Origin: Thermodesulfobacteriota bacterium | Lineage (GTDB): Bacteria > Desulfobacterota > Deferrisomatia > Deferrisomatales > JACRMM01 | DNA: 57,221 bases | NCBI GenBank assembly: GCA_040756475.1 | Contig: JBFLZB010000009.1 | Coordinates: forward strand, 1-57,221 | Reading direction: 5' to 3' | Shown here: positions 12,469 to 18,557 of the stretch, one piece after another | Position numbering within the stretch: position 1 is the stretch's first letter | Layout: each line of letters begins with the position of its first letter | Translations under genes and position numbers: made by a program | The notes under the pieces: model-generated | Seen by the model: the letters and a program-made list of their open reading frames with translations, nothing else | The model's database searches: none | What the model was told of the DNA's origin: nothing

Positions 12469-12497
12469 TTGACGGGGATTGGGGTGGGTGTTAGAAG
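12469..12497 (+). promoter_or_regulatory. Candidate sigma-70 promoter
   Basis: TTGACG (12469-12474), 17-base spacer, TAGAAG (12492-12497). The start point would be near 12504, about 50 bases before the ATG at 12554. The -10 matches four of six consensus bases. Confidence 0.4.
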
Positions 12498-12553
12498 GGC
12501 GTCGACCCCGGCGCACCGGGGTGCCTTCGTCCGCCAAGCACGGGAGGTCCGCC

Positions 12554-13663
12554 ATGACGGTCCACACCCGCAAAGCCGCCTGTCTCGCCCTGGCCCTGGC
12601 CGCCGCGTTCCTGGCTGCCCTTCCCCGAGGGGCGTTTTCGGACTCCGGGGGGGGCGATTTCGTGGGTTCGGTGATCTTCTCGAAGGGAGCGCAGGTGGTC
12701 GCGGAGATTCCGGGAGGGGCCGTGGAACGGGAGCGGATGACGGTGGTGGGGGGCGACCTGCGGCCCAAGGCCTTTGCGGCGGTGGTTCAGCCCCTGGCGG
12801 ACGGCACGTTCGTGCTGCGCGTGATCGGCTCCGGCTCTGCGGCCGTGGGCGATCGGCTTGCCCGGGAGACGGAGCCGGAGGCAGCGGCCCGGGTCCTCCG
12901 GGAGAACCGGGTCGATGGGTATCGGGAGTTCCTGGACCTCTACCCCAAGAGCCCGTATCGGGAGCGCATCGGGCGCGAGATGTTCCGGCTGGCGATGTCG
13001 GAGGCGTTCCCGTCTCCCGAAGGCTCGGTGTTTCGGGGAAAGGTGCGCCTGATCGAGAACCTGGGCCGGGAGCTTCCCCTGCGCGGGGCCACCGTGACCC
13101 TGGACCGCTTCGTGCTGCCCCCGACGGACGCCGACGGGGGGGTTCGCCTGGAAGGCATTCCGGTGCTGGAAGAACCGGTCACGGTCCGGCTGCGCCTGCG
13201 CGATCCGCGGTTCGAGATGGCGTCGGAGGTGGAGGTGGCCCTGCCGGCCGGGACGTCCGCCCAGGTAACGGCCGACGTGCCCGTTCGGGTGGTGCCCGCC
13301 GTGCTGGCGGGAAAGGTAGTGGACGGCCGGGGCGCCCCCCTGCCCGGCGCGGAGGTGTGGACTTCGCCCTACACGACCGAGGTGCTCTCCGGCGACGACG
13401 GTACGTACCGGATCTTCCGGCGCAAGCTCCTGGCCCCCACGGAAGGCGCCGCCGCCGACGAGCCGCTCTTCGGGGGCGATTTCGAGGTCTACGCCCGCAG
13501 AAAGGGGCACGCCGTCGAGCGGGTCTGGGTCTCCGCCGAGAGCCACCGGGAGAACCCGGTGCCCCTCCTCCAGTTGCCGGCCCAAGACCCCCGCCAGGAG
13601 GACCTGCCGGACCTCGCCCTGGACCTGCGCCGTCACCTCTGGGTGAGCACGCCGCTCCGGTAA
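12554..13663 (+). CDS. Exported carboxypeptidase-regulatory-like protein
   Basis: A 369-residue protein from an ATG preceded by GGGAGGT. Its signal peptide runs TRKAACLALALAAAFLAALPRGAFS. Residues about 30-100 contain a small all-beta segment (FVGSVIFSKGAQVVAEI). A tetratricopeptide-like stretch follows (YREFLDLYPKSPYRERIGREMF). Two Ig/transthyretin-like modules come next: RELPLRGATVTLDRFVLPPTDADGGV, and VLAGKVVDGRGAPLPGAEVWTSPYTTEVLSGDDGTY, which is the carboxypeptidase regulatory-like pattern. Probably periplasmic or surface-attached. It converges on the HD-GYP gene, with 13 bases between the two stops. No enzyme motif is visible. Confidence 0.7.
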   Translation: MTVHTRKAACLALALAAAFLAALPRGAFSDSGGGDFVGSVIFSKGAQVVAEIPGGAVERERMTVVGGDLRPKAFAAVVQPLADGTFVLRVIGSGSAAVGDRLARETEPEAAARVLRENRVDGYREFLDLYPKSPYRERIGREMFRLAMSEAFPSPEGSVFRGKVRLIENLGRELPLRGATVTLDRFVLPPTDADGGVRLEGIPVLEEPVTVRLRLRDPRFEMASEVEVALPAGTSAQVTADVPVRVVPAVLAGKVVDGRGAPLPGAEVWTSPYTTEVLSGDDGTYRIFRRKLLAPTEGAAADEPLFGGDFEVYARRKGHAVERVWVSAESHRENPVPLLQLPAQDPRQEDLPDLALDLRRHLWVSTPLR

Positions 13664-13676
13664 GGAAGGGGTTGCC

Positions 13677-14945
13677 CTATGCCCGTGCCCCATCTTCTTC
13701 CACCGCTTCGATCCATCCGTTGGGCTGAACGGCGAGGTCCAGCATCTGCCCGCCGTCCACCTGCACGAGGGGGCGGAGCCGATCGGGGGCGCCGGCTTCC
13801 AGTACGACGGCGGCCCGGCCGTCCCACAGGCGCACGCGCCGGCCGGGCGCCAGGAACTCCAGGAGACCGGCAAACGCGCCCACGCAGATGGGGTGGAGGT
13901 ACCCCCTGCGCATGTCCTGGAGGAGGGCGTTGAAGGCCACCTCGGCGCTTCGAGCCGGCCGGTAGGGCCGGATGGTGCGCAGGGCGTCGTAGACGTCGGC
14001 CACCGAGACGAGCAGGCTCGCCGGGTGGCACGGCCCCGCGGCTGCCGAGGCCGGATATCCCTGCCCGTCGGCGCCCCGGTGGTGCTGGTACGCCACCACG
14101 GGCAGGAGGGGGTGCGGACTGCCGAGGCCCAGGAGCATGCGCGCCCCATCCACCGGGTGGCGGTCCATGACGAGGCGCTCCTCGGAGGTGAGGCGTCCGG
14201 GCTTGTTGAGGATCTCGGCCGGGACCTTCTCCTTGCCCAGGTCGTGGCACATGCCTGCCAGGGCCACGGCGTTGACCCCTTCTTCCGGCAGGCCCTGGGT
14301 CTCGGCCATGGCCGCCGCGAGCACGCACACGTTGAGGGCATGGGTGAAGGTGTACTGGTCGTGGGACTTGAGCTCCCGAATCGGTCGAAAGAGCTCTTCG
14401 CCCGCCGCGAGCCGTGTGGCGATGGCGCGCACCATCTCTTCGGCGCGCCGCAGGCTCACGCTCTTGCCCGCCGCGAGCCCCTGGAGGGTCTCCTCCACGC
14501 CGGGAAGGAGCGCCAGGTACCCGGCGGCCAGCTCGGCCATCTCCGGGTCGATGCCCGGGGCGTCCAGGGCCAGCACCCCCGCCCGGATGGCGCCCCCCAG
14601 GGGGAACTCCGCCCCGGTGACCAGCCGCTCCACCCACTCCTCCAGTTCCTCCGCCCCGGCCCCCGGCTCGACCTGCACCGACTCGTGGCCCCGGGCGCCC
14701 ATCTCGCGCAGGAGGGCCGCCAGGGCCGGAGGCGGCTCCGCCAGGGTGCAGTCTTCGACCACGAGGTCGTCGCCGAGCCGGGCAATGCGCACGGTGCCCC
14801 CCACCCGGGCCAGGCTCGCCGCCGCCTTCTGGGCCGCCGCTCGGATGAGCTCGTTTCCCGCCGGGTAGAGCCGGCGGGACCGGTACAGACCGGCGAGGTC
14901 CCGTAGGAACACCCCTACCTCGCTCCTCACGGACTGGCCCATCAC
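13677..14945 (-). CDS. HD-GYP domain phosphodiesterase-like protein
   Basis: A 422-residue protein. The C-terminal half is an HD-GYP domain: His202 in FTHALNV, His234-Asp235 in MCHDLGK, KPGRLTSEE, His263 in MDRHPVDG, His288-His289 and DGQGYP (293-298). This family hydrolyses cyclic di-GMP using a two- or three-metal centre. Residues 10-110 form an N-terminal module with RRLYPAGNELI that also occurs in the upstream HEAT-repeat gene. The tail (VRLWDGRAAVVLEAG, QPNGWIEAVEE) is a small beta domain seen in related HD-GYP proteins. It overlaps the upstream gene by four bases, so the two are co-translated. Confidence 0.87.
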   Translation of the reverse strand: MMGQSVRSEVGVFLRDLAGLYRSRRLYPAGNELIRAAAQKAAASLARVGGTVRIARLGDDLVVEDCTLAEPPPALAALLREMGARGHESVQVEPGAGAEELEEWVERLVTGAEFPLGGAIRAGVLALDAPGIDPEMAELAAGYLALLPGVEETLQGLAAGKSVSLRRAEEMVRAIATRLAAGEELFRPIRELKSHDQYTFTHALNVCVLAAAMAETQGLPEEGVNAVALAGMCHDLGKEKVPAEILNKPGRLTSEERLVMDRHPVDGARMLLGLGSPHPLLPVVAYQHHRGADGQGYPASAAAGPCHPASLLVSVADVYDALRTIRPYRPARSAEVAFNALLQDMRRGYLHPICVGAFAGLLEFLAPGRRVRLWDGRAAVVLEAGAPDRLRPLVQVDGGQMLDLAVQPNGWIEAVEEDGARA

Positions 14946-16759
14946 GCCACCCCCGTGCCGGCAGCCAGCACCCGCCTGGCCAGCTCCTGCTCCGCAGCCG
15001 TCCCCAAGCGGCCGCGGTCCACGTCGACCAGCGCCGCCTGGGCCGCCAGGGTGTCGAGACTCCCGAGCGCCAGCACCGCCTCCCGGCGCACCTTCGGGTG
15101 TTCATGGCCAAGAAGCGCGCGCAGCGCCGGCACCACCCGCGCCTCGCCTCGCCGCCCCAGAGCGACGGCGAGATTGCGGGTCACGTACCAGGGAGAGCTG
15201 CGCAGCCGCGCCACGATGGCAGGGGTTGCGGCGTGGGAGAACGCGCAGAGCACGTCCACCAGGAATCGCCGCACCGAGATCCGCTCCTCCGCCCCCAGGG
15301 CCCGGAGCACCGGGGCAAGGAGCGCTCCTTCGTGGCGGACCGCAAACGCCAGAAACTGGTCGCGGGTGAGGCGGTCCAGATCGCGCAGCCGGCCCGCGAC
15401 CGCCTGGAACAGGCGCTCAAGAGCCTCCGGCCGGCCGTCGAGGAACCCCGGCAGGTCGGCGTCCACCCTGGCCAGGAGCTCGAGCATCGGTCCGGGCGAG
15501 AGCTCCGCGGCGCGCGCCTCGAGGCGCGCGAGCAGCGCCCCCGCCCACCCCTGCGGGTCGTCCGCTGCGAGGCACACGAGCACCCGGTCCAGGTGCCCGG
15601 AGGGTTCCTCGTCCAGGTGGAGGATCTCTCCAGACGGCGCCTCCTCGGGGGCCCGGGCGCCGAGCTCCTCCAGGGAGGCGGCATACTCCTCTCCCAGGAA
15701 GGGGTCCTCCTTGAGCTCCAGAAGGAAGGCCTCCACCGCCCTCCAGATCTGGTTGACCAGGAGGCCCTGGCGGGCCGACCCCAGGCGGGCCCGCACCATG
15801 GGCAGGAGCTCGTCGGCCCCCGCGGGGGGGGCAAACCGGCGAAATACGTCCGCGAGCCGCCGGGTGCTTCGCCCCTCGGCCGCCGCCAGCGCTGCCAAGA
15901 GCTCCACGAGGCGCTCCCCCGCCAGGTCCCGGGTGAGGGCGGCCACCGCCGGCCCGTGCAGCCCCCCCGTCCGGTCGGCCTGACCCACCACGGCGGCCAG
16001 CTCCCGCGCCGACAGCCCGTCGCCCAGACGACCGATCTCGTCCTCCAGGGCGTCCCTGCGCGCCTCGGGCAGCACTTCCAGCACCTGGGTGAGCCGCTCG
16101 CCCAGGCGAACGAGCACCAGGGCCAGGGACACGGCTTCCTCGGGCACCAGGACCCCCCTCGAACCTGCCCCCCCCAGGGGCAGCACCGAGGTCAGGGCAT
16201 CGGCAATTTCCTCCGCCGCCACCCCTTCTTGCAGCAGCCACTCCCACCCCTCCCGGCCGCGCCCCTCCCTGGAAGCCGTGTCGTGCCCCCCCTCCCGGAA
16301 GGTGTCGTGGAGGCGGGCCAGATCCAGGAGGTCGATCCCGATGGTGGGGATGCCCCCCTCGGCGACCGCCCGCCGGAGCTCTTCTCCCTGGAGGGCGGGA
16401 TCGGCCAGCAGATCGGCGAACCGGAAGACGTGGCCGGGGGTCACCTCCCCGGCCCAGATGAGGCGCAGCACCCTGCGGGCGTGGAGGTGGGCCGCGAGCT
16501 GCCCCGCCCGGGTGTTTCGCCCCCCTGCGTAGGCGGCCCCGACCTGGATTTCACCGGGGAGGACGCCCACCTCGAGGGGTTCCGGGAGCTCCCGGTGTAC
16601 CAGGGCCAGCAGGCGCCCGGCCAGGTCCGTCAGGTACGGATGACCCGGCGGGTACACCCGCACGCCGCGCACCAGGGCCAGGAGGTCCCGGGCAAAGGCC
16701 TCGAGGGCAAGGGAGGTGTCGCGGTGGCCTCCCGGCGGGGGGTGGTTAAACGGGCGCAT
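14942..16759 (-). CDS. HEAT-repeat protein with YPPGHP N-terminal module
   Basis: A 605-residue protein from the ATG at 16759. Residues about 17-115 (ALVRGVRVYPPGHPYL, then VGVLPGEIQVG and AGEVTPGHVFRFADLLA) parallel the N-terminus of the co-transcribed HD-GYP protein. The rest is helical. Near the C-terminus clear HEAT-type repeats appear: SSPWYVTRNLAVALGRRGEA and HEHPKVRREAVLALGSLD. HEAT repeats bind other proteins, so this could be a scaffold partner for the HD-GYP protein. No signal peptide or membrane segment is seen, so it should be cytoplasmic. No catalytic motif. Confidence 0.75.
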   Translation of the reverse strand: MRPFNHPPPGGHRDTSLALEAFARDLLALVRGVRVYPPGHPYLTDLAGRLLALVHRELPEPLEVGVLPGEIQVGAAYAGGRNTRAGQLAAHLHARRVLRLIWAGEVTPGHVFRFADLLADPALQGEELRRAVAEGGIPTIGIDLLDLARLHDTFREGGHDTASREGRGREGWEWLLQEGVAAEEIADALTSVLPLGGAGSRGVLVPEEAVSLALVLVRLGERLTQVLEVLPEARRDALEDEIGRLGDGLSARELAAVVGQADRTGGLHGPAVAALTRDLAGERLVELLAALAAAEGRSTRRLADVFRRFAPPAGADELLPMVRARLGSARQGLLVNQIWRAVEAFLLELKEDPFLGEEYAASLEELGARAPEEAPSGEILHLDEEPSGHLDRVLVCLAADDPQGWAGALLARLEARAAELSPGPMLELLARVDADLPGFLDGRPEALERLFQAVAGRLRDLDRLTRDQFLAFAVRHEGALLAPVLRALGAEERISVRRFLVDVLCAFSHAATPAIVARLRSSPWYVTRNLAVALGRRGEARVVPALRALLGHEHPKVRREAVLALGSLDTLAAQAALVDVDRGRLGTAAEQELARRVLAAGTGVA

Positions 16760-16925: not shown

Positions 16926-18557
16926 ATGGCCAACAGCATCGTCAACGTGCCCGAGCCCCGAAACGAGCCTCCCCTGACCTACGCGCCGGGTTCCCCCGAG
17001 AAGGCGGCCCTCAAGGCAAAGATTGCCGAGCTGGGGGGAAGGGAGGTGGAGATCCCCCTGGCGATCGGGGGCCGCGAGGTGCGCACCGGGCGCCTGGGGG
17101 AGTGCCGGGTGCCCCACCGGCACGCCCACCGGCTGGCGGTGTTCCACGAAGGGGCAGCCCCAGAGGTCGCCGCCGCGGTGGAAGCGGCCCTGGCCGCCCG
17201 GTCCGAGTGGGCCGCAACGGCCTGGTACGAGCGGGCGGCCATCTTCCTCAAGGCCGCCGATCTCCTGGCAGGGGGGTGGCGGCAGGTCCTCAACGGTGCG
17301 ACCCTGCTCGGCCAGAGCAAGAGCCCCTTCCAGGCCGAGATCGACGCGGCCTGCGAGCTCATCGACTTCTGGCGCTTCAACGCCTACTTCATGCAGGTGA
17401 TGTTCGGCCACCAGCCCCGGTCGGCGCCGGGCATCTGGGACCGGGTGGAGCACCGGGCGCTGGAGGGGTTCGTGTTCGCCGTCACCCCCTTCAACTTCAC
17501 TTCCATCGCGGGCAACCTCCCCACGGCCCCGGCCATGCTGGGCAACGTGGTGGTGTGGAAGCCCTCCCCCAAGGCCATGTTCTCGGCCCACTACCTGATG
17601 GAGCTCCTGCGAGCGGCGGGCCTCCCCCCCGGGGTGGTCAACCTGGTCTCGGGCCCGGCCGCCGACATCGCCCAGGCCGCCCTGGCGCGCCCCGAGCTCG
17701 CCGGGGTGCACTTCACGGGGAGCACCGCGGTCTTTCGGGGCATGTGGCGCACGGTGGGCGAACACATCGGGCGCTACCGCTCCTACCCCCGGCTCGTGGG
17801 AGAGACGGGGGGCAAGGACTTCGTGTTCGCCCACCCCTCGGCGGACCCCGCCGCCCTGGTCACCGCGCTCGTGCGCGGCGCCTTCGAGTACCAGGGGCAG
17901 AAGTGCTCCGCCGCCTCCCGGGCGTACGTGCCCGAGAGCCTGTGGCCCGAGGTGCGCCGCCGCCTCCTGGACGACGTGGGGCGCATCCGGATGGGGGACG
18001 TGGCCGACTTTCGCACCTTCCTGGGGGCGCTCATCGACGCCGAGGCCTTTGCCAAGGTGAAGGGGTACGTGGAGTACGCGAAGACGGCCGATGGCCTCAC
18101 GGTGCTGGCCGGGGGCGGGTGCGACGACCGGGAGGGGTACTTCGTGGAACCCACGGTGGTGCTCTCGGCCGATCCCCGGTCCCGGCTCATGGAGGAGGAG
18201 ATCTTCGGGCCCGTGCTCACGGTGTACGTGTACCGCGACGCCGACCTGGAGGAAGCCCTCACCCTGTGCGACACCACCTCGCCCTACGCGCTCACCGGGT
18301 CGGTCTTCGCCACGGACCGCCGGGCCATCGGCCACCTCTCCCGGCGGCTGCGGGACGCGGCAGGCAACTTCTACGTGAACGACAAGCCCACCGGGGCCGT
18401 GGTGGGGCAGCAGCCCTTCGGCGGGGCCCGGGCCTCGGGCACCAACGACAAGGCAGGGAGCCTCTGGAACCTCCAGCGCTGGGTCTCCCAGCGCACCATC
18501 AAGGAGACCTTCTGCCCCCCCACCCGCTTCGAGTACCCCCACATGCGCGAGGAGTAA
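16926..18557 (+). CDS. pruA: L-glutamate gamma-semialdehyde (P5C) dehydrogenase
   Basis: A 543-residue aldehyde dehydrogenase of the ALDH4A1-like P5C dehydrogenase type, oxidising glutamate semialdehyde to glutamate with NAD+ in proline/arginine catabolism. Visible residues: NAD-site FAVTPFNFTSIAGNLP, Glu293 in VGETGGKD, nucleophile Cys327 in YQGQKCSAASR, and EEEIFGPVLTVYVY. The N-terminal NEPPLTYAPGSPEKAAL is also typical of this type, which lacks the PutA proline dehydrogenase part. ATG preceded by GAGAGGAG. It has its own promoter and palindrome, and converges on the suc-type operon that handles 2-oxoglutarate, the next carbon step after glutamate. Confidence 0.93.
   Translation: MANSIVNVPEPRNEPPLTYAPGSPEKAALKAKIAELGGREVEIPLAIGGREVRTGRLGECRVPHRHAHRLAVFHEGAAPEVAAAVEAALAARSEWAATAWYERAAIFLKAADLLAGGWRQVLNGATLLGQSKSPFQAEIDAACELIDFWRFNAYFMQVMFGHQPRSAPGIWDRVEHRALEGFVFAVTPFNFTSIAGNLPTAPAMLGNVVVWKPSPKAMFSAHYLMELLRAAGLPPGVVNLVSGPAADIAQAALARPELAGVHFTGSTAVFRGMWRTVGEHIGRYRSYPRLVGETGGKDFVFAHPSADPAALVTALVRGAFEYQGQKCSAASRAYVPESLWPEVRRRLLDDVGRIRMGDVADFRTFLGALIDAEAFAKVKGYVEYAKTADGLTVLAGGGCDDREGYFVEPTVVLSADPRSRLMEEEIFGPVLTVYVYRDADLEEALTLCDTTSPYALTGSVFATDRRAIGHLSRRLRDAAGNFYVNDKPTGAVVGQQPFGGARASGTNDKAGSLWNLQRWVSQRTIKETFCPPTRFEYPHMREE

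Follow-up and report, generated by a model that had tools for sequence, protein, structure and literature searches.

Adjacent HEAT-repeat and HD-GYP proteins of Desulfobacterota share an N-terminal module and may form a two-part c-di-GMP phosphodiesterase

A two-gene unit encoding a HEAT-repeat protein and an HD-GYP protein

The DNA analyzed here (57,221 nucleotides; referred to as the window) covers positions 1 to 57,221 of contig JBFLZB010000009.1 from a Thermodesulfobacteriota bacterium (GenBank assembly GCA_040756475.1). A two-gene unit lies on its minus strand, where the original prediction had placed it. The first gene (14942..16759) encodes a HEAT-repeat protein of 605 amino acids (aa) (P0002), which has relatives in the window's order, and the second (13677..14945) encodes an HD-GYP protein of 422 aa (P0001). 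The unit is flanked on both sides by plus-strand open reading frames (ORFs), at 12479-13663 (carboxypeptidase-regulatory-like) and 16926-18557. At the junction, which reads GTGATG, the stop codon of the HEAT gene and a GTG start of the HD-GYP gene overlap in GTGA (14942..14945, minus strand), and an ATG follows at 14942. The 4-base overlap originally predicted is thus obtained with the HD-GYP start at GTG 14945 and shrinks to 1 base with the ATG start. No membrane segment is obvious in the two proteins, for which hydropathy over 19 residues peaks at 1.40 and 1.68.

The HD-GYP domain of P0001 (13908..14378, minus strand) was recognized by the Pfam model HD_5 (PF13487; E 2.4e-22; 79.9 bits against a curated cut-off of 27.2), to which the window's genome has 12 matches in total. 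P0001 contains H202, H234, D235, K238, H263, H288, H289, GYP at 296-298, and D317. All 49 rows compared, the window's P0001 among them, agree at these 11 catalytic and GYP positions, among which we count, residue by residue, the metal ligands typical of HD-GYP enzymes; P0001 thus probably acts as a phosphodiesterase on c-di-GMP or a related molecule. Known HD-GYP input domains include REC, GAF, PAS, and DUF3391; residues 1 to 185 of P0001 matched no Pfam or NCBIfam family above the cut-off, and so no known input domain. Compared by sequence, the HD-GYP c-di-GMP phosphodiesterases represented by PDB entries 4mcw, 4r8z, and 5z7c have the HD-GYP domain and the checked catalytic positions in common with P0001, as well as an N-terminal region ahead of the domain. 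P0001 differs from them in that neither Pfam nor NCBIfam offers a credible match to its N-terminal module and in that a HEAT partner bears a relative of this module; the six PDB matches to P0001 span only residues from 180 on.

P0002 carries HEAT_2 repeats at residues 513 to 579 (15023..15223, minus strand; PF13646; E 3.8e-12; 46.8 bits against a curated cut-off of 27.7), and its N-terminus matched no Pfam or NCBIfam family above the cut-off. It resembles the HEAT-repeat scaffold proteins (PF13646) in its C-terminal repeats and differs from them in its N-terminal module, which it has in common with the enzyme encoded by the adjacent gene.

The two N-termini are homologous

Both landmarks on which a shared module had been proposed are present, namely, RRLYPAGN in the HD-GYP protein and RVYPPGHP in the HEAT protein. 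The HD-type YP-x-GN module forms the N-terminus of P0001 (14583..14942, minus strand; module profile E 5.2e-29), where the homologous stretch may extend to about 14550, and the HEAT-type YP-x-GH module forms that of P0002 (16322..16717, minus strand; E 7.4e-29); both are also supported by hhalign. After the YP landmark, EPGAGAEELEEWVERL of the HD-GYP protein aligns with GEVTPGHVFRFADLL of the HEAT protein. BLASTP of P0001 against P0002 matched only 19 residues (E 0.016), and the pairwise comparison alone is therefore undecisive; the decision came from profiles, compared at the level of both the order and the phylum. A two-row MAFFT alignment of the window's modules was misaligned and was discarded.

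For the order-level comparison, relatives were gathered separately for each protein. Of 12 genomes searched in the order, 9 matched the P0001 N-terminus and all 12 matched P0002, the weaker P0002 matches falling mainly in the HEAT repeats. Ten HD-GYP and 10 HEAT N-termini from these separate searches, trimmed around YP, were matched by hhalign with a probability of 96.4% (E 1e-9, hhalign E-values here and below referring to single comparisons) over 103 collinear columns, with a score of 58.6 against at most 21.6 for 200 column shuffles and 21.6 for the reversed profile. Untrimmed 130-column segments agreed (96.4 and 96.1), and segments of this width off the module reached at most 6.9, except for one half-overlapping segment at 66.9. 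In these small sets, the YP block carries much of the score: the probability fell to 63.4% (score, 31.8) when the block was masked and to 2.5% (score, 17.2) for the part after YP alone. The modules of a second class of HD-GYP proteins (B type) bridge the HD and HEAT types at 97.9% and 97.6% at this level. Residues 15 to 102 of P0002 also matched the N-terminus of a B-type HD-GYP protein from another genome (G010:C17:36238, L060; E 4.6e-4), and this match and the order-level hhalign result are independent of the hypothesis.

Across the phylum, hhalign of 49 HD and 49 HEAT modules gave a probability of 99.7% (E 2.4e-26; 144 columns), with a score of 155.2 against at most 17.0 for 200 column shuffles. 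The match is independent of the YP block at this scale, as it persisted with YP masked (99.2%; E 2.2e-19) and for the part after YP (99.0%; E 3.5e-18). A hidden Markov model (HMM) built from HD modules only recovered 62 of 63 HEAT frames, one built from HEAT modules only recovered 59 of 60 HD frames (three genes are counted twice in these tallies), and neither matched any of 2,569 reversed frames. Each also matched two other forward frames. Three different frames are involved in all: L062 and L177, which resemble additional or truncated members, and a piece of a fusion-type protein that adjoins L148. Since the search that supplied the phylum-wide modules and the frames scored by the one-sided HMMs used a profile built from both kinds, these two results are not independent of the hypothesis. 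With single-kind profiles from the order alone, the HEAT profile found 45 of 60 HD frames and the HD profile 26 of 63 HEAT frames.

Judged by these profile comparisons, the first ~125 to 145 residues of P0001 and P0002 are homologous. The alignments suggest a layout of helix, YP-x-GH-P turn, helix, two strands, helix, strand, helix, and strand; single-sequence AlphaFold2 models of each window module alone (pLDDT, 46.5 and 44.1) were too poor to rely on.

The module lacks a family model and is frequent in the phylum

The module had been called apparently undescribed, and no credible Pfam, NCBIfam, or PDB match to it was found. Searches with 22 and 60 module copies against Pfam and NCBIfam returned weak single-member matches only (best E, 0.0039 and 0.0078, respectively). 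The best PDB match, to the designed protein Octarellin V.1 (E 6.3e-5; 44 positions), contained no stretch that passed alone and was judged compositional, and the other 11 PDB matches had E-values of at least 0.21. Within the open-licence part of PMC, nothing among the papers listed was recognized as describing the module or the HEAT and HD-GYP pair, three YP peptide strings were absent from the literature searched, and the papers matching HD-GYP together with HEAT repeat in this part carried neither term in their titles or abstracts.

At an E-value threshold of 1e-5, the module was matched in 156 of the 395 genomes sampled from the window's phylum and in 104 of the 246 genera; a domain so distributed without a Pfam or NCBIfam model represents an annotation gap. 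It was found in 0 of 199 genomes of one other phylum (reached via an Oscillospiraceae contig), the phylum genomes above and the four copies in the window's genome serving as the positives for the search. Those four copies are strong (E 5e-29 to 8e-18; next match, 0.036) and constitute exactly two HEAT and HD-GYP pairs, on contigs C9 and C172. The second pair (L058; G000:C172:2000-9755) is paralogous to that of the window and belongs to another subtype. Among the matches to P0001 listed from a plasmid collection (15 of 519 records), all started only at residue 124 or 129, and P0002 had no match in that collection. One single-protein scan of viral contigs gave no match, and a scan of a genome-contig collection yielded one distant HD-GYP protein only. 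All module copies examined lie in HEAT, HD-GYP, or GGDEF-AAA-HEAT proteins, with one more cut off at a contig end.

HEAT and HD-GYP genes are paired in a fixed order

We identified 58 gene pairs (48 from 60 fetched loci, 8 from a follow-up, 1 at L182, and that of the window), and the HEAT gene precedes the HD-GYP gene in all 58. At the 60 fetched loci, 48 of the 50 frames that combine HD with the module are preceded by a same-strand module frame; the two others run into a contig end (L061) or stand alone (L119). A HEAT match lies in the same frame for 46 of the 48 upstream module frames, HEAT_2 in the upstream frame of L120 is exactly at the Pfam cut-off, and at L121 the gene is broken, with the HEAT repeats falling in its following frame. 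The distance from the HEAT stop codon to the HD-GYP module match is at most 90 nucleotides (nt) in 45 of the 48 pairs, and this conserved tight gene order supports the coupled translation that had been proposed for the window.

The counts depend in part on how loci were chosen. The first 20 loci outside the order (19 pairs and 1 solo HD gene) favor pairs because 17 of them were picked at two adjacent listed matches, and the next 20, of which 18 were picked at single matches, gave 16 pairs, 2 fusions, and 2 solo HEAT genes. Among 150 listed matches in the phylum, 124 have a second match 0.3 to 3 kb away on the same strand, a count that takes in partners known from other module searches and four cases of tandem modules within one protein. 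Of the remaining 26 matches, 7 were in pairs already seen, 16 were fetched, and 3 were left out. With G031 added, this follow-up of 17 usable, mostly unpaired-looking loci yielded 8 pairs, 1 fusion, 5 solo HEAT genes, 2 solo HD genes, and 1 locus cut at a contig end. Three sets of genes were fetched twice (L144/L174, L145/L175, and L119/L176). Solo HEAT genes with no HD-GYP gene nearby are those of L062/L181, L165, L166, L167, L144/L174, and L145/L175; the solo HD-GYP genes with a module and no adjoining HEAT gene (L164 and L119/L176; genomes G268 and G306) come from the same genus.

Ten other neighboring ORFs scanned around the pairs vary. In 17 of the 48 pairs (L115:1293-1877, plus strand; L117:978-1646, plus strand; L058:6203-6922, minus strand; and 14 more loci), a convergent HEAT-repeat ORF follows the HD-GYP gene at a distance of at most 500 nt. 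Its open frame is 188 to 242 aa long in 15 of the 17 cases and 525 and 529 aa long in the other two, and the HEAT_2 match in L115 has an E-value of 1.6e-29. The convergent protein is a possible third component; the window encodes no HEAT protein besides P0002.

Tandem modules occur in single proteins

Frames with the arrangement GGDEF-AAA_16-module-module-HEAT were found at three loci in three genomes of three families (L143:1042-5334, minus strand; L148:1053-5420, minus strand; L162:2078-6481, plus strand; 1,431, 1,456, and 1,468 aa). Beside the L148 fusion, in G142, lies a second frame with two modules (L180:5899-10212, minus strand; 1,438 aa). What the three GGDEF-AAA_16-HEAT proteins have in common with the window's pair is the module, here present twice in tandem, along with HEAT repeats and a domain for cyclic dinucleotides; they differ from it in that a synthase-type GGDEF domain replaces HD-GYP and everything is in one chain. 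This combination in a single chain is the best hint that the modules work in twos, would also be expected of a system concerned with c-di-GMP, and favors a HEAT-phosphodiesterase complex that would be held together by hetero-paired modules, with the HEAT solenoid taking the input.

HEAT and HD-GYP genes duplicate together

When 102 modules were placed in one tree, the 49 HEAT-type rows all came to lie to the same side of a branch whose support (92/80; recovered in 91% of 200 bootstrap trees) is only moderate. Two changes, not one, must be assumed for the HD-type rows, and the placement of several long branches is uncertain. The two types differ at many positions, in keeping with an early divergence, and the four tandem-fusion modules cluster together (100/99). 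The same clusters of loci appear among the HD rows and the HEAT rows. In each of the two sets, 11 loci belong to the window's type and 9 to a long-HEAT type, and several other clusters recur likewise. The HEAT and HD-GYP pair thus duplicates as a unit. Tree distances of the HD and HEAT modules are correlated (rho, 0.73; 49 loci; at most 0.22 in 1,000 label permutations), in part through shared species history. The comparison within genomes is less affected by that history: five genomes with two or three pairs were compared, and in every one HD distances fit a HEAT partner of their own clade better than one of the other clade. Three of these five genomes contrast the same two clades, the difference in G229 is weak (0.56 versus 0.44), and same-clade paralogs are indistinguishable in this comparison (L049 and L052 have equal scores).

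A candidate phosphodiesterase-scaffold device

As a kind, the system would remain a regulated c-di-GMP phosphodiesterase. We favor, with a probability of roughly 0.6, the reading that the two genes encode halves of one dedicated cytosolic c-di-GMP phosphodiesterase-scaffold device joined through paired modules. P0001, with its catalytic residues intact, would hydrolyze c-di-GMP or a related cyclic dinucleotide, and P0002 would be its dedicated partner, serving as a scaffold or input subunit. One ancestral YP-x-GH domain would have given rise to the HEAT-type and HD-type modules, which may join the proteins by pseudo-symmetric module-module pairing. Coupled translation, with HEAT first, would yield matched amounts, and binding of a ligand or target to the HEAT solenoid could switch or localize the phosphodiesterase activity through the paired modules. 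Assembly of P0001 with P0002 is predicted to be more likely because the pairs co-duplicate and tandem modules occur in single proteins. More tentatively, and with doubt prevailing for the statement as a whole, an ancestral input module may have become two dedicated, non-interchangeable halves that pair a HEAT scaffold with a phosphodiesterase, forming a widespread and previously undescribed bipartite c-di-GMP system that is present in several insulated copies in some cells and in tandem form in the GGDEF-AAA-HEAT proteins.

The module might instead be a homotypic dimerization or ligand-binding domain, with each protein pairing with its own kind or both binding one small molecule, and with the two proteins sharing a pathway and not touching through it. 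HD-GYP enzymes often act as dimers, the two module types diverged early, and solo members of both kinds occur, all of which would suit such a domain; fixed-order adjacency, tight spacing, unit-wise duplication, and tandem modules nevertheless fit hetero-pairing more simply, and we regard a homotypic or ligand-binding module as unlikely, if still a serious competitor. It is improbable that the two proteins are only co-recruited by a module that binds some shared third partner or cell structure, for instance the short convergent HEAT protein or a complex in the membrane. The convergent ORF accompanies some of the pairs, as this explanation would expect, but none turned up at the remaining 31 pairs, where some of the fetched stretches run out, or in the window, and the other scanned neighbors vary. 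That nothing more than operon inheritance or neutral linkage lies behind the adjacency would agree with genes that overlap or nearly do so and are hence co-inherited; it is very hard to reconcile with a pair kept across many families and in several paralogous types (some in one genome) while the scanned outer neighbors differ, and re-pairing between paralogous clades is not apparent in the module tree. Least credible is a short YP motif arising by chance or composition in unrelated alpha/beta N-termini, to which the short BLASTP match and the low order-level values without YP would conform, but against which stand the phylum-wide masked comparisons and the cross-recovery by one-sided HMMs.

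To our knowledge, the signal or partner of many HD-GYP enzymes is not known. For the phosphodiesterase-scaffold pair proposed here, the partner gene is identified by the genome itself, and the common module offers a defined interface to mutate. Genomes with several pairs, such as the two in that of the window, provide a natural test of specificity in c-di-GMP signaling.

Two further observations concern genes upstream of the HD-GYP loci. In three genomes (L115, L117, and L125), an AMP-binding, acyl-coenzyme A-synthetase-like gene has the same orientation as the pair and lies upstream of it. At L176, the solo HD-GYP gene is preceded on the same strand by a frame of 832 aa for a flavin/iron-sulfur oxidoreductase.
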